Shown in pieces: positions 1 through 19,402 of a stretch of 20,706 nt of DNA (positions are counted from its first letter, which is position 1; each line of letters begins with the position of its first letter). Both the position numbers and the translations under genes were made by a program. A model generated the notes under the pieces. That model made no database searches, was not told where the DNA came from, and was given only the letters and a program-made list of their open reading frames with translations. Source of the stretch: a virus; the IMG/VR virus record IMGVR_UViG_3300043313_001055, positions 1-20,706 of that record; one strand, given 5' to 3'.

Positions 1-1
1 G

Positions 2-934
2 CGCCGTAGGCGTAACGCTGGAGAGACTAACGCGACCATCCCTCCCAGCGTCCGTAACTTCGGGGTAGAGTTAGAGTTCCACGGTTCCAGTTACGCGCTA
101 GCAGAGGAGATGCGCGCCCTAGGGCTGGACTGCGAGGAGCAAAGCTACAATCACAATGTCAGCCGTAGCCTTTGGAAGATCGTGCCCGATGGTTCGGTGG
201 ATAGCGGAGCAGAACTAGTCTCGCCTATCCTGTCCGGTGAACGTGGCTTCGAGGCGCTGCGCAAGGCTAGCCAAGCACTACAAACGGCCGGATGCAGCGT
301 CACAATAGACACAGGCTTTCACGTGCACCATGAGGTGCGCGACCTGACGGCCGTACAGTTCAAACGCTTTTGCATGTTGTGGCGTAGCTCGCAGGCGGCC
401 ATTGACTTACTTGTGTCTCCGTCACGTCGGCGTAACTCATACTGCAACCCGCTAACCGATCGGGATATACAGACCATTAACGGTCTGACCACCATGTCTC
501 AATACGTGGCCGGTGACCACCTCCGAAACATTGACCGTTTCAAGTCATTGAACGTTCAAGCGTTTGGCCAGTATGGGACGGTAGAGATCAGGCAACACCA
601 GGGCACCACGAACGCGGCCAAGATATGCGCATGGGTAGCGTTCGGTCAGGCAATGATTGCCTACGCCCGAGACAACGACACTCCGTTCGGTCTAGCCGAC
701 ACACCAGCATACGAAAGCGTGTGCCAGCTGCTAACCAACTTGCCGCTAGAGGAAGCTACCCGGACGTTCCTGACCGAGCGTGCGACCTTCTTTCAAGGCC
801 AGACAGGCAATGATCCCGAGGAGGAAGACGGCGAGGCTCGCCGCGACGCATACGCCGATAGCTGGGACGAGAGCGATGACGACTACGATCCCGAGCCGTT
901 ACTAGACACCTACGATTCACAGAGCATGTTCTGA
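2..934 (+). CDS. Amidoligase (Amidoligase_2-like), 5' end cut by window edge
   Basis: The frame is open from base 2 through the first internal ATG at 110, so the true start lies outside the window; 310 residues are visible. Seen: FGVELEF (bases 59-79), matching the GxExE start of the Amidoligase_2 fold; then DGS, GAELVSPIL, TGFHVHHEV, and GTVEIRQHQGTT followed by a Trp helix, the usual motif order of the family. These enzymes are glutamine-synthetase-like ATP-dependent ligases that join an amine to a carboxylate to form an amide, often on peptides; the substrate here is unknown. The last 40 or so residues are very acidic and Tyr/Trp-containing and lie outside the enzyme fold. The glutamine-amidotransferase-like gene follows after 12 bases, so a joint pathway is likely. 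Family assignment is firm; biological role is not. Confidence 0.85.
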   Translation, partial: RRRRNAGETNATIPPSVRNFGVELEFHGSSYALAEEMRALGLDCEEQSYNHNVSRSLWKIVPDGSVDSGAELVSPILSGERGFEALRKASQALQTAGCSVTIDTGFHVHHEVRDLTAVQFKRFCMLWRSSQAAIDLLVSPSRRRNSYCNPLTDRDIQTINGLTTMSQYVAGDHLRNIDRFKSLNVQAFGQYGTVEIRQHQGTTNAAKICAWVAFGQAMIAYARDNDTPFGLADTPAYESVCQLLTNLPLEEATRTFLTERATFFQGQTGNDPEEEDGEARRDAYADSWDESDDDYDPEPLLDTYDSQSMF

Positions 935-946
935 GGAGAGACCAGC

Positions 947-2095
947 ATGACTAACCAACGTCCACGCATTATGGTCCTAGAAGGACTTAGTGGTGCCGTC
1001 GACTGTGTGTATGAGGCAGGCGGTACGCCCGTCGAATTCGCGCCCTACAGTCTCGACGTGATCAAGAAAGAATTCCAGAGCCAGCGGGTAGACGGACTAG
1101 TCCTCACCGGAGGTGGGGACGTCGACCCGTCACACTACGGCGAGGGGAAGGCTCGCCATGTCCAGACTTACGGAGTAAACCAGCTACGGGACGTCGTAGA
1201 GTTTGCCGCCCTACGCATGGCGCGTAAGCACAATGTGCCCGTGTTGGGTATCTGCCGAGGCGCGCAAGTGATCAACGTCGAATCTGGCGGGTCTCTGTGG
1301 CAGAACATCACGGACAACCATCGCACTAGCTCGGCGCATAAGTGCGGCAACCTACCGGTGAACATCCGACAGGGTAGCTACCTACAGGAGGCTGTGGGAG
1401 GCAGACGCCGAGCGGCTGACACTATCCATCTACACCACCAGGCGGTTAGGCGCGTAGGGCGCGGACTGAGAGCCAGCGCGCATCACCGTGACGGAACTAT
1501 CGAGGCTATCGAAAGCATCACGGGCCGCTGGGTTGTCGGGGTACAGTTTCATCCCGAGATGGCACGGGACGGGGCACCCGAGATCGGACTGTTTCGTCAG
1601 CTAGTCCTCCACGCTGCGGCCGATGCCGGTCTACCCGTGCCCGAGGAGCGCGAGGCTAAGGCATACGCCTACACGTCGTATACCCCCGGCAATCATTACG
1701 AATGGCCGGGCGTCATGGGACGGGAGCGTTCATACGAAGACTCGTATGACGCCTATGGCGAAGACTGGGAGCGTGCCTATACTCCGGTAGCGCCAGGATC
1801 GCACCGTAGCGACTACACCGAGGTGTCGTGGGATGATCACTATTGGTGCCATATCTGCCGTATGGACTTCGACTATCAAAACGACTACGTCGACCACATG
1901 GGAGTCATCCACTCAATGCGCGTAGCGCTGCTACCTGATCGGGGCAGCGAGGACTCTCGCGCGGCAGTGCTAACCCGTATGCCGACTGCGAGCAACGACT
2001 ACAATCCGGACGATGATGACAACGTCATTGAGCAAGTGCAGCGCGAGCGGCTAGCTATTACGGTCGGCGCTACGTCCGGGCATAAGGTGGGCTAG
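947..2095 (+). CDS. Class I glutamine amidotransferase-like / peptidase C26 (PuuD-like) with C-terminal C2H2 finger
   Basis: 382 residues. ATG at 947 has a strong GAGGAGAG ribosome site. Residues 1-225 form the class I GATase fold: LTGGGDVDPSHYG (53-64), nucleophile elbow GICRGAQ with Cys103, and FHPE with His202 and Glu204, the complete Cys-His-Glu triad. The DxDP segment resembles PuuD-type gamma-glutamyl hydrolases rather than biosynthetic GATases. The family cleaves gamma-glutamyl amide bonds. Residues 236-300 are rich in Tyr, Asp and Glu, followed by a C-x2-C-x12-H-x4-H finger (Cys301, Cys304, His317, His322) and an acidic tail. Such a finger is not a usual part of the family and may guide binding to nucleic acid or protein. 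Pairing with the upstream amidoligase suggests making and trimming of an amide-linked product; that is inference. Confidence 0.83.
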   Translation: MTNQRPRIMVLEGLSGAVDCVYEAGGTPVEFAPYSLDVIKKEFQSQRVDGLVLTGGGDVDPSHYGEGKARHVQTYGVNQLRDVVEFAALRMARKHNVPVLGICRGAQVINVESGGSLWQNITDNHRTSSAHKCGNLPVNIRQGSYLQEAVGGRRRAADTIHLHHQAVRRVGRGLRASAHHRDGTIEAIESITGRWVVGVQFHPEMARDGAPEIGLFRQLVLHAAADAGLPVPEEREAKAYAYTSYTPGNHYEWPGVMGRERSYEDSYDAYGEDWERAYTPVAPGSHRSDYTEVSWDDHYWCHICRMDFDYQNDYVDHMGVIHSMRVALLPDRGSEDSRAAVLTRMPTASNDYNPDDDDNVIEQVQRERLAITVGATSGHKVG

Positions 2096-2097
2096 TC

Positions 2098-2445
2098 ATG
2101 AGTCTACGACTAGAGGAGGAGAATGGTGGCGCGTTATGCGCCACCTACTCATACGAGGACGCGGACCGCCTATGGTTCGCGGAACCAGGATCGCTGGAGG
2201 CAAGCGAGGCTAAGCGTATATGTATGGCCTGTCCGTTGTACTTCCCGTGCCAGACTTACGCGCTAGAGGAAGGCGTGACAGACGGGGTATGGGGAGGCAT
2301 GGACAAGGATGACCGTTACCGCATTTGGTACCGGGGTAAGGGCATGCCGACGACGTTCATGGATGACATCCAACGAGCATTCAACGGCATGACACGAGAC
2401 GGGCCGCGCGCAGCACGCGCGCACCCGATGACGGGAGGGTCGTGA
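2098..2445 (+). CDS. whiB-like: WhiB-like [4Fe-4S] transcription regulator
   Basis: 115 residues, ATG two bases after the upstream stop, with GGTGGG as ribosome site. Four cysteines fit the Wbl cluster: Cys14, Cys42, Cys45 and Cys51 (C-x27-C-x2-C-x5-C), followed by the GVWGGM turn at 63-68 and a basic stretch. Wbl proteins bind an iron-sulphur cluster, contact the principal sigma factor and change promoter choice; they occur only in actinobacteria and their phages. Phage versions such as that of mycobacteriophage TM4 repress host whiB2, block septation and cause superinfection exclusion (known for TM4, inferred here). It is expressed in the same run of genes as the amidoligase pair, and its 3' end overlaps the next gene by TGATG. 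Confidence 0.92.
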   Translation: MSLRLEEENGGALCATYSYEDADRLWFAEPGSLEASEAKRICMACPLYFPCQTYALEEGVTDGVWGGMDKDDRYRIWYRGKGMPTTFMDDIQRAFNGMTRDGPRAARAHPMTGGS

Positions 2446-2624
2446 TGGACCTATACGCGCCGTGGGCGGTAACACCCTGGCAGGCGATACTCGGGATAGC
2501 CGTGCTGTTGCTCGTGTGCCTAGCGGGCAACGTGGCGGCATGGGGACCGACTCTTGAGAGGTGGGAACGTGAGGTCTGTGGCACTAGCACTGGCGACGAT
2601 GACGCTGCTACTGGGATCAGTTAG
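2445..2624 (+). CDS. Small single-pass membrane protein
   Basis: 59 residues. The ATG at 2445 overlaps the whiB stop (TGATG), so translational coupling is likely; a GTG one codon upstream is the alternative start. A hydrophobic segment at about residues 11-32 (AILGIAVLLLVCLAGNVAAW) is long enough to cross the membrane once, followed by a short polar tail with EREVCG and acidic residues. No family was recognised. The next gene overlaps its last 56 bases in another frame. Confidence 0.5.
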   Translation: MDLYAPWAVTPWQAILGIAVLLLVCLAGNVAAWGPTLERWEREVCGTSTGDDDAATGIS

Positions 2625-2736
2625 CGGCAACGTGTCACGCTCGTATGACGAGTGCAGACACCTACCGGGCGCGGCAGCGTATGACGCTGGCGACCCGCAA
2701 TGGTGGCCAGTGTGCCACGAAGGGACGAGACCGTGA
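2569..2736 (+). CDS. Small protein with signal-peptide-like N-terminus
   Basis: 55 residues from a GTG start chosen because GAGAGGTGGGA lies just upstream; a TTG at 2554 is less likely. The N-terminus is a short hydrophobic run (VALALATMTLLLGSVSG) typical of a signal peptide or anchor, followed by a small mature part with two cysteines (DEC and PVCHEG) and WW. It begins inside the preceding membrane-protein gene and its stop overlaps the next start (TGATG). The side-by-side small membrane and small exported proteins resemble envelope-acting phage proteins, but no family is recognised. One of the two overlapping frames could be spurious. Confidence 0.45.
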   Translation: MRSVALALATMTLLLGSVSGNVSRSYDECRHLPGAAAYDAGDPQWWPVCHEGTRP

Positions 2737-2927
2737 TGGAAGTTACTTACGACATCAAGCTAGGCGAGCCGGATTGGGATAGCACCATGCGTGTTAAGGG
2801 AACGGTAGGCATGCGCACCGCTCCTATAGATATCGAGTTTGACATGGCTGTGGGTGAAGTAAAACTTACGCCCGAGGCAGCGCGTGATCTATACAACGCG
2901 TTAGGTACAATCCTGAGTAGTCACTGA
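2736..2927 (+). CDS. Hypothetical protein, 63 aa
   Basis: ATG at 2736 overlaps the preceding stop (TGATG) and has AAGGGACGAG upstream. The protein is acidic, begins with alternating strand-like segments (VTYDIKLGEP, MRVKGTVGM, IDIEFDMAV) and ends in a helix (TPEAARDLYNALGTIL). No Cys, no membrane segment, no recognised family. It is the last gene of the amidoligase-WhiB run before the extended -10 promoter at 2942. Confidence 0.6.
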   Translation: MEVTYDIKLGEPDWDSTMRVKGTVGMRTAPIDIEFDMAVGEVKLTPEAARDLYNALGTILSSH

Positions 2928-2941
2928 GGATTCTCGATCCG

Positions 2942-2950
2942 TGGTATACT
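2942..2950 (+). promoter_or_regulatory. Extended -10 promoter (TGG-TATACT)
   Basis: In the gap between two rightward genes, GTGGTATACTGG holds a TG-N-TATACT extended -10 hexamer (TATACT at 2945-2950). No good -35 hexamer is seen at the right spacing, as is usual for extended -10 promoters. Transcription should start near 2957, just before a GTG at 2958. The same 12 bases recur at 15588-15599. Confidence 0.6.
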
Positions 2951-2996
2951 GGAGGTAGTGCGTAGCACTGCCACTCCGGTAACTATAGGAGGCACT

Positions 2997-3146
2997 GTGG
3001 AACCCAGACTAGAGACTCTAGCCTGTCAGAACGGCTACCATGCCAAGTGTAAGGGTCTAGTCGTCAATTGGAGAATTGGAGTGCGGCACGCCGCGTGCGA
3101 GTGCTCGTGTCACCACCGGAGAGAGGACAGGAGTGACAGTAACTAG
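2997..3146 (+). CDS. Small Cys/His metal-binding protein
   Basis: 49 residues from a GTG at 2997 with a perfect AGGAGG ribosome site five bases upstream. An in-frame GTG at 2958 sits at the predicted transcription start of the 2942 promoter and would give a leaderless 62-residue form. Seen: Cys10, His15 and Cys18 in an N-terminal LACQNGYHAKC cluster, then Cys34, Cys36, Cys38, His39 and His40 near the end, a pattern common in tiny actinophage proteins and suited to zinc binding. First gene of the clamp/HTH group; its stop overlaps the next start by 14 bases. Function unknown. Confidence 0.7.
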   Translation: MEPRLETLACQNGYHAKCKGLVVNWRIGVRHAACECSCHHRREDRSDSN

Positions 3147-3780
3147 GTCGGCGCTATGGTGGACGTTCCAGGCCACTCTACCGCACTGTAAGGACACCTT
3201 AGGGCTGTCCACCAGCGATGACAAGCTGTGGACATGGGGCACCGATGGTTACACCATCGGCATATCCCGAGCCGATGATCCCGATCAGGAACCGTGTGAG
3301 GTGGTCCTTACCCATAAGGTGGCCCTGGACGTCATGCGCTGGCTACGGCCAGCGCGTAAGGCGGAACATGCGCAGGAAGTCCAGCTAATTGTGCGCGGCG
3401 AGGAGTTCCACCTAGGTGCGTATGACGTAAGCCAACTACCGGGCGAGCTTGTAGATTCTGCTGTGTTTGCGTACGACTGGCACGACCCGGATGATGGAGT
3501 AACGCCTGCCCCTGTTAGACTTGACTACTTACGCGAGCATGTAGCGAAGATATCTAGGCAGCGCGTAGAAATGTCACAGATGGTCTATCAAGGGCCGCTA
3601 CTAGCCCGCTTCGACAAGGCCACCCGTAGCACTATGGACCGTGTGCGATTCTATCCGCGTAGACTGGACGATCGCCACGGTGCGGCGATTGTGACCGTAG
3701 GGCCTGACTTCCTGGGTGCCATCTCTGCACTTACGTATGACGATGTAGAACCAATGGAAAGCTGGATAGATGAACACTGA
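3133..3780 (+). CDS. dnaN-like: DNA polymerase III beta / sliding-clamp-like protein
   Basis: 215 residues from GTG 3133, chosen because GAGAGGACAG precedes it. The order of motifs matches small actinophage beta clamps as known from the family: SALWWTFQATLPHCKDT at the start, a TDGYTIG strand, a hydrophobic VALDVMRWL helix, a central REEFHLG/ELVDSAVF region, LLARFDKATRS, and a C-terminal IVTVGPDFLGAISAL. A clamp encircles DNA and tethers the polymerase. The protein is short for a bacterial clamp (about 370 residues), but two-domain phage versions of this size exist. The replication proteins of the leftward block would be its partners, although no polymerase gene is visible. Moderately sure. 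Confidence 0.6.
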   Translation: MTVTRSALWWTFQATLPHCKDTLGLSTSDDKLWTWGTDGYTIGISRADDPDQEPCEVVLTHKVALDVMRWLRPARKAEHAQEVQLIVRGEEFHLGAYDVSQLPGELVDSAVFAYDWHDPDDGVTPAPVRLDYLREHVAKISRQRVEMSQMVYQGPLLARFDKATRSTMDRVRFYPRRLDDRHGAAIVTVGPDFLGAISALTYDDVEPMESWIDEH

Positions 3781-5396: not shown

Positions 5397-5819
5397 TTAT
5401 TCTCCTTGTTTAGCGGCTAGCATTTCTTTCTGTCCTTCGGCCAAGGTGATCGTATGCGCGCATACCTGACGGCGCAGCTGATTCTCCAGAACGTCATCAC
5501 GACGTGCCCGTGGTAATGGCACGAAGCGTAAGTTAACTTGAGCGGAAGGCGCGCCACCGAGTTCCAATGGAATGATATGATCATCTTCATACCCTCGCTT
5601 AGTGGGCAGGCCCTTCGGCCGGACGGTAGCCGTCCAGCCTTTCACGCAGATGGTTTGATGGATGGTGGCCTGCGTGACCACTGGGTTGAGCATCGCAGAT
5701 GCCACTTTGCTGGGGCTACGTTGCCCCAGCGAAGGACTAGTCCGCCCAGTTGTGCACCCCAATAAGGTCGGGGACACCAGAATGCTCAGAATCGCTATCG
5801 TAAGAAATTTTCTGAGCAT
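5397..5819 (-). CDS. Lipoprotein with HNH-like nuclease domain
   Basis: 140 residues. The N-terminus is a lipoprotein signal: basic MLRKF, hydrophobic core, and lipobox LLGC with Cys22 as the lipid-modified residue. Residues 45-135 form a His-Asn nuclease-like domain: NPVVTQATI, TICVKGWTATVRP, DDHIIPLELGG (His81), NLRF (Asn96), RRDDVLENQL and a final Cys120. This order is shared by exported HNH-type proteins of bacteria. Inference: a nuclease or nuclease-fold protein anchored outside the cell membrane, which could attack incoming DNA or cell-wall-associated DNA. Ribosome site GAAGAGGA. An 11-bp inverted repeat covers its start codon. Confidence 0.75.
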   Translation of the reverse strand: MLRKFLTIAILSILVSPTLLGCTTGRTSPSLGQRSPSKVASAMLNPVVTQATIHQTICVKGWTATVRPKGLPTKRGYEDDHIIPLELGGAPSAQVNLRFVPLPRARRDDVLENQLRRQVCAHTITLAEGQKEMLAAKQGE

Positions 5820-9948: not shown

Positions 9949-10289
9949 TACGCTCCAGAGAAATGATCGTAAGTCGTAACTTCGTCCTTACGCTCCACCG
10001 GGGCACCTTGCACTGGACGCTGCTCGACGTCACTCACCTTAAAACCCTTAAGGGGGCGGACATCGGTGTGAGAGATTGGTGCGGTCGTGGTGTCAGTGCC
10101 ACCGCCGACGTTAGCCACGTAAACGACAAGGTTGTTGGGCTCATCCCACGTCACGATCGTGGCGACTAGGCCACGATTGACCACAACCTCATCACCAACG
10201 GCAAACTGTGGTTTGCCTTCCTGTACCGGCGCGTCGGTGACGCGAGTCTGCTCGTCCTCGCTCTTGACTGCCTTCTTTTCCTCGGTCAT
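9948..10289 (-). CDS. SH3/KOW-like beta-barrel protein, 113 aa
   Basis: ATG 10289 has AAAGGA seven bases upstream. Residues 1-25 are charged and flexible; residues 28-80 read as a small beta barrel (FAVGDEVVVNRGLVATIVTW, NNLVVYVANVGGG, ISHTDVRPL), reminiscent of SH3 or KOW-type modules that bind nucleic acid or protein, and the tail is again charged. No catalytic motif. The neighbouring Toprim gene ends four bases inside its start. Barrel call is inference from pattern only. Confidence 0.55.
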   Translation of the reverse strand: MTEEKKAVKSEDEQTRVTDAPVQEGKPQFAVGDEVVVNRGLVATIVTWDEPNNLVVYVANVGGGTDTTTAPISHTDVRPLKGFKVSDVEQRPVQGAPVERKDEVTTYDHFSGA

Positions 10290-10933
10290 TCTGTGATCCT
10301 TTCGAGAAATTCGTAAACCCCTCGGTCTACGATGTAGGAGTTGGCATCCAATCCATCTCCTAATTGTACCACCCTGGCGGTGTTCCCAATCGACTGGGCC
10401 ACGGCCTTCGCTGCATCCTTGCCAGGCTGGTCACCGTCCGCGATGACGATAACCTCCGGGATACCCTCGAAGCACAACGGCCAATATTCGTTGCCGTTGC
10501 TGGTCCAGGTGGACGCACCTGGATAGCCGACAGCTGGGATGTCACACAGGGCTTCGACGCTGATCGCGTCAAGTTCACCTTCGGTGATGACTACTACGTC
10601 CGTGGCACGGATGAGCGTTTGGGCGTTGTACAGCTGGTGCTTGACCCCCGGCTCGTAAAGGTACTTCTTACAGTTCAACCCCTCCTCCTTGTGATCACCG
10701 TGGGACAGGTTGACGCAACCATACTTGAACCCGACAACCCCGCTAGGGGTGAGGTACGGGATCGACAGTCTATGGATGAACTCACCCTCGGTGACGCAAC
10801 CTAGACGGAAGACGTCTGCTATCTCTTTCGAGATGCCACGCATCTCTAAGTAGGGAACCACTTCGATCACGTTCTGATAGTACAGCCAAGAGCGGTCCGT
10901 GAGGACCGCCTTGCGTTCGTCGGTCAAGACCAC
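10286..10933 (-). CDS. dnaG-like: DnaG-type primase Toprim protein
   Basis: 215 residues from GTG 10933 with AAGGGAG five bases upstream. The N-terminal region (PYLEMRGISKEIADVFRLG) is the typical primase linker, followed by SIPYLTPSGVVGFKYG and KYLYEPG. Toprim residues: Glu118 in VITEGELDA, and Asp166 and Asp168 in IADGDQPGKDAA, with a later GLDANSY. The helicase-binding part of bacterial DnaG is absent. It makes RNA primers for lagging-strand replication together with the separately encoded CHC2 zinc-finger protein whose gene overlaps it by ten bases. Confidence 0.87.
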   Translation of the reverse strand: MVLTDERKAVLTDRSWLYYQNVIEVVPYLEMRGISKEIADVFRLGCVTEGEFIHRLSIPYLTPSGVVGFKYGCVNLSHGDHKEEGLNCKKYLYEPGVKHQLYNAQTLIRATDVVVITEGELDAISVEALCDIPAVGYPGASTWTSNGNEYWPLCFEGIPEVIVIADGDQPGKDAAKAVAQSIGNTARVVQLGDGLDANSYIVDRGVYEFLERITE

Positions 10934-11256
10934 ATTAGCTCCCTTGCGAACAACTCGGAACGGCGGGGTCTCTTGCTCTCACTTACCCTACCACCCCCAA
11001 GATCATGCAGACGGGTCACAGTCTCAGAGTGATCCAACCGAAGCTGCTGCTTCAGCAGGCTGTAGGAGTTCCCACGGACGCCACAGGCCATGCAGCTGAA
11101 GGCGTTCGCTTGGTGATTTACGCTCGCGCTCTTGATGTGGTCCTCGTGAAAGGGGCAGTGCATCCGGACCCAGCCATGGCCCGAAGGGATAGCCATGTCC
11201 GTAAACATTGAAAGAACTTCGTCTATTGAGCATTCACTCTTCGTCTCTGCTGGCAT
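10924..11256 (-). CDS. dnaG-like: CHC2 zinc-finger part of split DnaG primase
   Basis: 110 residues from ATG 11256; a TTG at 11295 preceded by GGAGGG is the alternative start and adds 13 residues. Metal site: Cys34-Pro-Phe-His37 and Cys55-x2-Cys58 in HCPFHEDHIKSASVN and AFSCMACGVRGNSYSLL, the CHC2 pattern of DnaG primases that recognises template DNA. The Toprim part is the next gene in another frame, with a ten-base overlap, so the primase is split into two subunits rather than broken. Basic C-terminus (KRPRRSELFAR). Confidence 0.87.
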   Translation of the reverse strand: MPAETKSECSIDEVLSMFTDMAIPSGHGWVRMHCPFHEDHIKSASVNHQANAFSCMACGVRGNSYSLLKQQLRLDHSETVTRLHDLGGGRVSESKRPRRSELFARELMWS

Positions 11257-11596
11257 GGTAAAGGGACGTCTCGACTTGCTCACGGAATGTTTCAAGGATC
11301 ACCCTCCAGTCCGCTCCGATAATCTCGGAGATATCATACAGAGACTTGGCGTACAGGCTGATCGCAGTGTGTGCCGTGTACTGGTCCGACACCTTCATTA
11401 CGTCAACAATAGTAGGAGCGTCCTGATCGAGAATGGCCTTGACTCCTGTTAAGACAAGACCCTCGGCTTCCAGGGACTCAAGTAGAGTCTTGTTCTGGCA
11501 GACGGGGCACAGTTCGGGGTCAAGTTCCGATAGCAGGTTCTTTTTGCTGTTGTCGTCCTCAAACTCGTCCATGTTAATCGTCGGTGGCTTGATCAT
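11234..11596 (-). CDS. Hypothetical protein with single CPVC knuckle, 120 aa
   Basis: ATG 11596 has AGAGGAAA upstream. N-terminal acidic DEFEDDNSKKNLLSELDPELCPVCQNKTLLESLE with Cys30 and Cys33, then a mainly helical part (VLTGVKAILDQDAPTIVDVMKVSDQYTAHTAISLYAKSLYDISEIIGADWRVILETF). One CxxC could pair in a dimer. No family recognised. Position between the primase zinc finger and a nuclease suggests a replication accessory protein. Overlaps the downstream zinc-finger gene by 23 bases. Confidence 0.6.
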   Translation of the reverse strand: MIKPPTINMDEFEDDNSKKNLLSELDPELCPVCQNKTLLESLEAEGLVLTGVKAILDQDAPTIVDVMKVSDQYTAHTAISLYAKSLYDISEIIGADWRVILETFREQVETSLYHASRDEE

Positions 11597-15786: not shown

Positions 15787-15935
15787 CCACCTGGAATGAC
15801 ATTCTAGCCTTCGTCTTCGGAGGAATTCTATTCCTCTGTCTCGTTTGGATCGGTGTACACGTCTACGCGTTGGTCCTAGTTGGCTGGTATGCAGCCAAAG
15901 AAATTGCCAAGAGACGGAAAGGAATCCGTACATGA
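15783..15935 (+). CDS. Small single-pass membrane protein, 50 aa
   Basis: GTG 15783 overlaps the preceding stop and its own stop overlaps the next start (ATGA). Residues 7-36 are hydrophobic with several aromatic residues (ILAFVFGGILFLCLVWIGVH, then VYALVLVGWYAA), enough for one long or two short membrane segments, followed by a basic cytoplasmic-type tail KEIAKRRKGIRT. With the secreted protein next to it, it suggests envelope action. No family recognised. Confidence 0.65.
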   Translation: MTTWNDILAFVFGGILFLCLVWIGVHVYALVLVGWYAAKEIAKRRKGIRT

Positions 15936-16360
15936 AACGTAAACGACTCTACCAAAGGCTAGCAGTATTATTGCTAGCTGTGGTTGCCGCACTGGGCTTG
16001 GCGTTCACCAACTCGGCAACATCGAGCGCCACGATCCAGGGATACGGCACGACTACATCATTCTATGGCTGGAACTATGATTACGTTCCATGCTACGGGA
16101 ATAACACGTCGTTCCTGTATCAAGGCTTCCGGGCATCCAAGACCCTTGTCCAGTTCCGTTGGCAGACGCAGACCAATGGAACGATGCGAGTCCGTAACAT
16201 CAAATCCGGCGAGTACCACGACATCGCCACCGCTGGCAATCCTGACAGTTTCAAAGCCAAGGTGTACTGGCTCAATTGGTACGCTGGGCTGCGTTACGAG
16301 TGGGAGCTAGAGTGGCACTGGTCCGGGTTGGTATGTGGAGTTTACTTCTGGGCTGGATGA
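15932..16360 (+). CDS. Secreted aromatic-rich protein, 142 aa
   Basis: ATG 15932 has GGAAAGGA upstream and overlaps the previous stop. Signal peptide: MKRKRLYQR, a hydrophobic core LAVLLLAVVAALGLAFT, and an AxxSSA-type cleavage region near residue 33. The mature part (about 109 residues) is beta-strand-like and very rich in Tyr and Trp, with two cysteines (VPCYG and LVCGVY) that could form a disulphide. No known fold recognised. A phage-coded exported protein could alter the host surface, block adsorption or aid release. Last gene of the cassette, 10 bases before the terminator stem. Confidence 0.72.
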   Translation: MKRKRLYQRLAVLLLAVVAALGLAFTNSATSSATIQGYGTTTSFYGWNYDYVPCYGNNTSFLYQGFRASKTLVQFRWQTQTNGTMRVRNIKSGEYHDIATAGNPDSFKAKVYWLNWYAGLRYEWELEWHWSGLVCGVYFWAG

Positions 16361-17058: not shown

Positions 17059-17288
17059 TTCCTCTTAGCCTTTCCCGCTACACTGAGAGCTATCGCTACC
17101 GCCTGTTTCTGCGGGCGACCAGCTACCTTCTCAGTCTTGATGTTCTTGCTAATCACCTTCTTAGAGCTTCCCCTTTTTAGAGGCATCGGTTCTCCCTCGC
17201 AGCAACTATTCTTAAAATGACAATGAGGACATAGCCACCGCGAAGCGGTAGGTTCAAATAACTGTTCACAATTAGCACAGTCGATCAC
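17055..17288 (-). CDS. Zinc-ribbon N-terminus joined to DUF6496-like basic module
   Basis: 77 residues from GTG 17288, overlapping the tail-gene stop (GTGA). Residues 1-33 hold [10 protein letters not shown] and [12 protein letters not shown] (Cys4, Cys7, Cys20, Cys23, plus two). Residues 35-77 ([19 protein letters not shown], then [19 protein letters not shown]) match the short DUF6496-type basic protein found alone in many phages and bacteria. An internal ATG at 17186 has GAGGGAGA four bases upstream, so a second, 43-residue product is likely. Whether the two parts are one protein or two is open. Confidence 0.65.
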
Positions 17289-19402
17289 GAAACAACCCGT
17301 AATGTACCAAGGAAGTAAGTGTTAGGTGGTTGCAGGGTATTCACGTACACATCGTAGATGGTTCCAATCACCACATTCCTAGGTATTGAATTTATGTTCA
17401 AAGCATCCCAAGCTCGCTGGGTGAAGAAGTGAGTTCTGTTACTATCCTGCGTAAGTGTCCGCACGAACGGGGCGTCCGGACCCAGCACATAGACAGTCAT
17501 CACCGTGTTAAGCGGGTTACCACTGTCTAGCTGATCATTTATAGAGACGGTGTCGGAAAGAGCTAGCGTGACGACGATAGACAGATTATCCGCCACGGAT
17601 ACAACATCCGTCAACGTCGGATTACCGCCAGTAAATACGCTGAGCAGATCGACAATACTGACAGTGTCTGTAAGTGGCACCGCTGCCGTGATGCTGATTG
17701 CATCGGAGGCGTGAGCGGTATCGGTTAGCGGTACCGCAGCGGCCACAGACAGGGCGTCTACCGCGCTGGCCACATCCGTAAGGCTGATGGCAGCAGCGAC
17801 GCTCAGGGAGTCAGCTGCACTTACGATATCCGTCAGAGCAGCTGAAACGGCAATTGAAATCGAGTCAGCGACACCTACGGTGTCGGCCAAAGATATCGGC
17901 GTGGTGCTGATAGGCCCGAGGTAGCCGGTGTCGCTCAGCCCGATGTCGTCCATCCAGTACGGACCAGCGTTGGCAATATTCAGGCCGATGCCGAACCGAA
18001 CCTTATCCGGCACTCCGGTCATCGCTTGGGTTGCGGCCGACGTCTGCGTGTCATCCGGCGTACCGGGCGAGTCCGGCGTGTACCAGATCTTGTATTCCCA
18101 CTGGCCCACCGAGGCGTCGCCAGTGACGAAACCCTCTAGCCTGACCCACTGATTCAGCGGAATGGCAGCCGAGGTGAACACCGTAGTGCCAGCGGCCCTA
18201 GTGAAAGCCAGCGCGCCAGCGGCCGTGAAGAGGATGTTGCCGATATTGGTCGAGCCCTGCAGGACGTTTAGGACCCGATACTGCGCGGCGGGGAGGGCGG
18301 TGAAATAAAGGTAAGCGCGGAACCACCGAGTCGCCGGGTTTGGGAACGACGCACTCCACTCTAGATACGACGTCGTAGAAGTCGCAGCGGTCGCGATCTT
18401 GGCGGACAGGGTGCCGTGCGCGGCTTGGGTGTTGTCGAACGCGGTAGTCGCACCCGTGCCGGTAGACACGTTGTCGAAAGCATCATCTGGAGCAGTGCCA
18501 GAGTTACCGGTGGTGATGGTCGTACCGTTGCTGCCGCCCTCGAAGCTATTTTTCAGTGGCGACTTGGTACGGGTAAGAGCATCTGCCGACGCAACTGTAT
18601 CCGTAAGTGCAACCGTTGCCGAAACGGTCAGCGCATCAACACTGGCGACTGTGTCGCTAAGATTTCTGGATATCTGAGCCGGTTGGGTTTGGTACAGCAC
18701 CTGACGGTGCTTAAACTTACGTCTCCACACCTTGCCGGGTCTAGCCGAAGGCTGTGGACCGGCTGTAGCCGCCTTAAACGCGGCAGACATGATGCCAGAC
18801 GCAAGGCTACCACCGGTCACCGTGAATGTGGTTGCGATACTACCGGCTGATGTCTGTATCTGATCCTCAGCGGCGAAGTCAGACACCGTCGAATCGTTAC
18901 CGATGAACGAGTACCCAGCCCCGGCAGTTGCCGGACTGGTTGCATTACGGTAGATTAGCGCAGATACGATTAGATCACCGGCAGCGGTGGTGATCATCGC
19001 AGTATCGGTGGGGTTGGTTACCGGCGCAGTACTCAGCCCGGTCGTGTTCTTATCAAGCACAGCCGCTATAGCTGCACCAGAATACTCAACGATATGTATT
19101 GACCGTAAGCTATTATTCTGACTAAAAGTGGCGGTGACTGTAGTAGCCCCACCAGGAGCGTTCACACAGTAGCCTATGGCGAAGCGGGCAGCCGCTCCAG
19201 CTTCCGTGAACGTTGCGATAGTCACCCAAGTAGGTGCGCCGGTCGAAGAGAATGTGATCGACGGAGTGTTGGTAGTGTCTACCGAAGCAAACGCAACGAG
19301 AAGGTTACCAGCCGTGACGTTAGAACCGAAAGCAACTGCAATAGAAGTACCGTTCGCCGCGTTAGAAACCGAGACTGGAGCTTGTGCGCGGGCAATGGGC
19401 AT
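17285..19402 (-). CDS. Large repetitive minor tail / surface protein
   Basis: 705 residues. ATG 19402 has GAGGAGGGG upstream. Residues 1-215 are an immunoglobulin- or beta-sandwich-like Thr/Ala/Ser-rich region ([19 protein letters not shown]). At 248-280 are two repeats; 285-495 resemble a LamG/concanavalin-type carbohydrate-binding domain ([38 protein letters not shown]); 505-625 are seven more 18-residue repeats (LTDTVSxxDxLS); 630-705 form a C-terminal domain ([17 protein letters not shown]). Very few Cys or Lys. The make-up fits a tail-fibre or baseplate-associated protein that contacts the host surface. No enzyme motif seen. Confidence 0.72.
17528..17890 (-). repeat. Tandem 54-bp coding repeats (18-residue units), seven copies
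   Basis: Units start at residues 505, 523, 541, 559, 577, 597 and 615 of the tail protein, each beginning L(T/A/S)D followed by Val/Ala-x-x-Asp-x-Ile/Leu-Ser. Spacing is 18 residues, with a two-residue insertion after the fifth unit (TGGNPT region). Degenerate at DNA level. A rod of stacked beta strands is the likely form. Confidence 0.75.
18563..18661 (-). repeat. Two further 18-residue units, separate from the main array
   Basis: Residues 248-265 ([18 protein letters not shown]) and 266-280 ([15 protein letters not shown]) repeat the same motif, separated from the main array by the lectin-like region, so the repeats flank that domain. Confidence 0.7.

Follow-up and report, generated by a model that had tools for sequence, protein, structure and literature searches.

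An actinobacteriophage locus pairs a glutamine-synthetase-like amidoligase with a PuuD-like hydrolase: a candidate zinc-armed module for gamma-glutamyl conjugation and deconjugation

The window analysed here, the whole of a 20.7-kb virus record and itself a fragment, begins with two genes on the same strand separated by 12 bp (Table 1). The first gave a Pfam match to Amidoligase_2 (E 1.6e-26; 94.1 bits against a curated cut-off of 22) and the second to Peptidase_C26 (E 3.8e-47; 161 bits against a cut-off of 20.5), bearing out the pairing of these families proposed in the first-pass annotation. The intergenic gap contains a purine stretch resembling a ribosome binding site which, on a direct reading of the letters, is consistent with co-translation of the ligase and the hydrolase. 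The WhiB-like regulator gene that follows directly is found at the same position in the nearest relative, L002 (record IMGVR_UViG_3300019999_000001), and is probably on the same transcript; we regard it as context and not as part of the pair. A promoter and terminator scan of positions 1-3200 detected nothing above chance.

Table 1. Features of the amidoligase-hydrolase locus, with positions in the window.
Feature	Position	Strand	Basis or remark
Amidoligase_2, glutamine-synthetase-like ligase	2..934	+	Pfam PF12224; 5' end cut by contig start
FGVELEF, ExE motif of the GS-like ligase active site, putative metal/ATP site	59..79	+	E235/E237 (L002 numbering)
GTVEIRQH, second conserved acidic/basic ligase motif	575..598	+	E407, R409 (L002 numbering)
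Acidic, aromatic C-terminal tail of amidoligase; flexible, lineage-restricted	809..931	+	Composition; model
12-bp gap from ligase stop to hydrolase ATG, with ribosome-binding-like purine stretch	935..946	+	Direct sequence reading
Peptidase_C26 / PuuD-like gamma-glutamyl hydrolase (by family) with C-terminal zinc finger	947..2095	+	Pfam PF07722
GICRGAQ, catalytic nucleophile Cys103	1247..1267	+	C103 invariant
QFHPEM, catalytic His202 and Glu204	1544..1561	+	Both invariant
Acidic Tyr/Trp-rich linker from hydrolase domain to finger; predicted disordered	1643..1843	+	Residues 233-299
C2H2-type zinc finger (C-x2-C ... H-x4-H), WCHICRMDFDYQNDYVDHMGVIH	1844..1912	+	Residues 300-322; beta-beta-alpha in model
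WhiB-like regulator gene, directly downstream of C26	2098..2445	+	PF02467, E 3.1e-14

The DnaB-like helicase and the PD-(D/E)XK exonuclease of the window matched mainly phages of Mycobacterium, Propionibacterium/Cutibacterium, Rhodococcus and Streptomyces; because of these matches and of the WhiB gene, the host is very probably an actinobacterium. Four further regions of the window were recorded. The primase appears to be split into two overlapping ORFs (10289-11295, minus strand), one coding for a CHC2 zinc-ribbon protein (PF01807) and the other for a Toprim protein. An ORF at 5400-5819 (minus strand) is predicted to code for a secreted lipoprotein-like product with an HNH-like motif, DDHIIPLELGG...N, and gave no Pfam match at 0.01. 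A small Tyr/Trp-rich protein with a signal-peptide-like N-terminus and no Pfam match is encoded at 15845-16360 on the plus strand, amid genes lying mostly on the minus strand. The 705-aa ORF at 17288-19402 (minus strand) has repeated similar units, possibly those of a virion surface or fibre protein.

Judged by the full-length, 519-aa ORF of L002 (87% identical to the window ligase over the shared part; 92% for the C26 protein), the ligase of the window lacks its first ~212 residues, a truncation that the first-pass annotation had overlooked. In L002 this missing part comprises a beta-solenoid-like stretch, with a weak Pfam match to the LbH domain (a left-handed beta-helix-like stretch), and a predicted CxxC...CxxC zinc ribbon. 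The first pair of active-site residues, E235/E237 in L002, is nearly invariant across 30 relatives and the second, E407 and R409, is invariant; both motifs are intact in the window. A PDB profile search with the ligase alignment retrieved no chain, so the fold was tested by structure prediction instead, from an alignment in which two rows from phage records were left out. In the AlphaFold model of the L002 ligase, confidence was high for the ribbon (about residues 160-195) and for the catalytic domain; the N-terminal solenoid, with too few relatives, reached a pLDDT of about 30. The model superimposed on YbdK (1r8g; Z 13.6, rmsd 3.9, 226 residues aligned), on glutamine synthetases (Z about 13) and on gamma-glutamylmethylamide synthetase, and a GS/GCS-like, YbdK-like fold is the one predicted for this orthologue of the window ligase. 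The ligase of L018 (3972-5747) is fused at its N-terminus to a YdcK-type beta-solenoid repeat (PF18836, E 1.9e-18); it also carries a zinc ribbon, and its tail is strongly acidic and includes a CxCxxC cluster.

The hydrolase was confidently modelled over residues 1-235. Its Cys-His-Glu triad is intact, as the first-pass annotation had stated: in a set of 30 viral and bacterial sequences Cys103, His202 and Glu204 never vary. The nearest solved relatives, by sequence and fold, are Lin1909 (3fij), PuuD (6vtv) and SpuA (7d4r/7d50/7d53).

The same annotation had described both proteins as ending in Asp/Glu/Tyr/Trp-rich regions of similar flavour, and had proposed these regions as shared docking sites or as the substrates themselves. 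The composition was confirmed: among 21 predicted proteins of the window the two stretches are the richest in these residues (21/40 and 19/40; the next protein reaches 14/40). In the C26 protein, however, the stretch is a linker, followed by a zinc finger that had escaped notice and by a further C-terminal tail. The likeness between the ligase tail and the C26 linker appears to be mainly compositional, local alignment against shuffles giving only p = 0.036. Both parts are poorly ordered in the models, with pLDDT below 50 for linker residues 241-296 and about 50 for the ligase tail of L002.

Comparison with relatives did not bear out the expected co-conservation of the tails, which are absent from most of them. 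Only the window, L002 and L018 have the acidic ligase tail, which is absent in L003-L007, L024 and L088; the linker is acidic and Tyr-rich only in the window and L002 among the relatives compared, its net charge being -9 in the window, -8 in L002, -1 in L018 and +11 to +12 in L003, L004 and L007. Tails as conserved features were thus rejected: most relatives in which both enzymes are present and still adjacent have no such stretch, or one of opposite charge. Conservation at the C26 C-terminus lies in the finger instead. Between the window and L002 both stretches look to be under purifying selection, the pN/pS values, which come from few sites, being 0.26 for the tail (ligase domain, 0.16) and 0.15 for the linker (C26 domain, 0.06). 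These values leave room for a lineage-specific role of the tails. Matched docking sites or substrates are, in spite of this and of the extreme composition, a highly improbable explanation for the pair, given the distribution among relatives, the weak mutual similarity and the predicted disorder of the linker.

The finger residues Cys301, Phe308, Asp309, Asp313, Asp316 and His317 are invariant in ten phages, the window included. The model places strands at 299-301 and 306-308 and a helix at 311-321, with modest confidence (pLDDT 54-64). An expected zinc ligand is substituted in L005 and L024. Pfam assigned no confident family to the finger, the only match being zf-C2H2_4 at E 0.16 in one relative, nor to the ribbon of the ligase. 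When 2.9 million viral contigs were searched with two degenerate DNA patterns derived from the finger, matches fell only on contigs carrying this C26 family, and the finger is absent from all bacterial C26 proteins fetched.

The distribution of the two zinc modules follows the pairing of the genes. The ribbon occurs in 8 of the 13 ligases with a C26 partner and in 1 of 73 other ligases; among C26 proteins, the finger is present in 9 of the 15 that have a paired ligase and in none of 59 others. Ribbon and finger, as recognised from sequence, largely co-occur. The C26 proteins carrying the finger form one clade (100/100), placed with moderate support near bacterial PuuD-like enzymes. C26 proteins beside an amidoligase are found in separate C26 clades. 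A second set of amidoligase-C26 pairs, L026-L030, has no finger, and its C26 proteins form a clade of their own. The idea that the zinc-armed ligases constitute one clade found no support: the ligase tree, whose forks are weak, requires two changes. Pairwise identities of ligases and C26 proteins are correlated, with rho 0.64 when all pairs are taken and 0.40 in the zinc-armed set; joint inheritance would give such a correlation, and so could the phage phylogeny alone.

The adjacency itself is conserved, as the first-pass annotation had anticipated: 14 further viral contigs have a same-strand amidoligase gene immediately before C26, except that in one of them (L005/L021) a GGCT gene is placed between the two. 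An amidoligase was found in the fetched flank of 33 of 65 viral C26 loci, and these 14 contigs correspond to 13 of those 33 plus L088. Most of the other viral C26 loci with an amidoligase belong to a larger cassette, with a COOH-NH2 ligase, a class-II amidotransferase and usually an ATP-grasp protein. For the C26 loci of bacteria, 80 in number, the flanks contained no amidoligase. Of 396 actinobacterial genomes sampled, only 4 carry one, which led us to reject the amidoligase as an ordinary host gene. Two of these rare actinobacterial-genome amidoligases, L247 and L250, have neighbours of the kind seen in phages, GGCT or class-II amidotransferase genes.

Seen from the ligase, 112 amidoligase loci were collapsed to 77 clusters at 70% identity. 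In 70 of these (about 90%) a C26, class-II amidotransferase or GGCT gene lies within the fetched flank; outside CN2-containing cassettes, 46 of 59 clusters have exactly one of the three (GGCT 26, C26 11, class-II amidotransferase 9). These neighbour counts derive from profiles built for this analysis, on flanks partly cut by contig ends and on loci related by descent, so that they are non-independent. C26, class-II amidotransferase and gamma-glutamyl cyclotransferase have unrelated folds and a common chemistry, the cleavage of gamma-glutamyl amides. That three such partners replace one another beside one ligase is our main argument for a gamma-glutamyl bond as the bond handled.

On balance, we consider it somewhat probable that the two genes form a minimal, zinc-armed gamma-glutamyl conjugation and deconjugation module of an actinobacteriophage; both the chemistry and the direction of the two reactions are inferred from the families and the gene context. 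Within the records searched, its lineage has none of the COOH-NH2 ligase type 2, class-II amidotransferase and ATP-grasp genes that many phage cassettes contain. The GS-fold amidoligase would use ATP to activate a carboxylate, probably the gamma-carboxylate of glutamate by way of an acyl-phosphate, and join it to an amine. Linkages of this class would be removed or edited by the PuuD-like C26, with Cys103 forming a gamma-glutamyl-thioester. The zinc modules would probably serve to recruit both enzymes to a common macromolecular target or to one another; these modules are predicted, and we infer their zinc binding and recruitment role, which could instead be structural. Candidate substrates are peptidoglycan precursors, a published guess for the larger cassette, or a cytoplasmic protein or nucleoprotein, raised by the zinc modules. 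Two considerations speak against such a module. Making and breaking one bond would be a futile cycle unless time, place or substrate kept the ligase and the hydrolase apart, and enzymes of the C26 and class-II amidotransferase families can also work as ammonia-feeding glutaminases.

This last activity is the basis of a tentative alternative, a two-subunit amidotransferase in which C26, as glutaminase, feeds ammonia to the amidoligase and a carboxylate is amidated, functionally like GatD/MurT on the D-glutamate of peptidoglycan. The C26 protein does match class-I amidotransferases, both in Pfam (PF00117) and in fold (GMP synthase subunits), and in other phages the neighbour of the ligase is a class-II glutamine amidotransferase instead. 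Its closest solved relatives, however, are PuuD, SpuA and Lin1909 and not amidotransferase subunits; MurT has a Mur-ligase fold, unlike the Amidoligase_2 partner in the window, with its GS-like fold; and the partner most often found beside the ligase, GGCT, is not known to act as an ammonia donor.

The zinc modules suggest a further reading, which we hold to be rather doubtful: reversible tagging with gamma-glutamyl or other amides, in which a writer and an eraser would be carried by these modules to one macromolecular target. Such a target could be a DNA-bound protein, RNA polymerase, the ribosome or DNA, and the pair would then be a phage switch for post-translational or nucleoprotein modification.

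Gamma-D-glutamyl bonds occur in peptidoglycan, and the pair could be a peptidoglycan-editing one, altering such amide bonds in the stem peptides of the host and so blocking superinfection or aiding infection. Taken as the explanation in its own right this is unlikely, although it is compatible with the conjugation-deconjugation module as one choice of substrate. In its favour is the proposal made for PSA-HP1, RIO-1, phiEco32 and LUZ24-type phages (PMC5498523, PMC10580990). Against it, modules such as the zinc ribbon and the finger fit a macromolecular partner in the cytoplasm, and neither the COOH-NH2 ligase type 2 (PF14395) nor the class-II amidotransferase GATase_6 (PF13522) was found in the seven nearest records, which are possibly incomplete; the positive control for PF14395 gave matches in the records of L010 and L034. 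No ATP-grasp partner was seen in the flanks of the window lineage. GGCT/GGACT (PF06094) is absent from the L002 record (47.8 kb) and present in three of the seven nearest, the window being a fragment.

Metabolism of small amines is very unlikely. Here the ligase would gamma-glutamylate polyamines or other amines in the manner of PuuA/GlnA3 and the C26 protein would release them as PuuD does, a view that draws on the GS fold, on the PuuD/SpuA-like C26 and on the use of gamma-glutamylpolyamine synthetases by actinobacteria (PMC5403932, PMC8998196). Amidoligase_2 is, however, a GS-like family other than PuuA/GlnA, and enzymes acting on small molecules would not be expected to carry zinc modules, as both do here. 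In the Puu polyamine pathway, moreover, PuuB/PuuC-like oxidoreductases come between ligase and hydrolase, and none was seen among the window genes scanned, the window being a fragment.

Phage amidoligase cassettes are widespread, and the interchange of partners beside one ligase directs attention to the bond handled. With its two genes, the zinc-armed form is compact and should lend itself readily to reconstitution, and its zinc modules offer a handle, by pull-down or binding assay, in the search for the target.

The proposal of such a cassette in phages reportedly goes back to Iyer et al. 2009, as cited through later papers. That amidoligase pairs are known from comparative genomics, as the first-pass annotation had stated, agrees both with the neighbours of nearly all phage amidoligases examined here, which cleave gamma-glutamyl amides, and with the phage cassettes already described in the literature (PMC5498523, PMC3890496, PMC10580990). 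The larger cassette has been proposed to modify the cell wall against superinfection (PMC5498523, PMC10580990), and another paper proposes nitrogen metabolism as an alternative (PMC10945688). An enzyme assay of any cassette member was not found in the passages searched.

Among solved enzymes, PuuD, SpuA and Lin1909 (C26-type gamma-glutamyl hydrolases in MEROPS) share the fold and catalytic triad of the window C26; the bacterial relatives fetched differ in having neither a C-terminal finger nor an amidoligase in the flank. YbdK and the glutamine-synthetase-like ligases share the predicted ligase fold (Z 13-14), with a sequence identity of only about 10-14%. The closest annotated phage amidoligases, at 36-38% identity, are those of the Arthrobacter cluster AL phages Laroye, Salgado and Waltz, which like the window have an actinobacterial host and gamma-glutamyl-amide-cleaving neighbours (PMC5513430). 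Waltz differs in having a GGACT gene upstream and a class-II amidotransferase gene downstream, with neither C26 nor a zinc ribbon.

The cassette itself is known, and it is its C26-only form, with a C2H2-type finger and a ligase zinc ribbon, that is undescribed in the literature searched. As in the 'peptidoglycan modification cassette' of PSA-HP1, RIO-1, phiEco32 and LUZ24/PaP3-type phages, Amidoligase_2 in the window adjoins, on one strand, an enzyme of a gamma-glutamyl-amide-cleaving family; in contrast to the published cassette, that enzyme is C26, with a predicted finger of its own, beside a ligase whose zinc ribbon and solenoid are predicted from its relatives.
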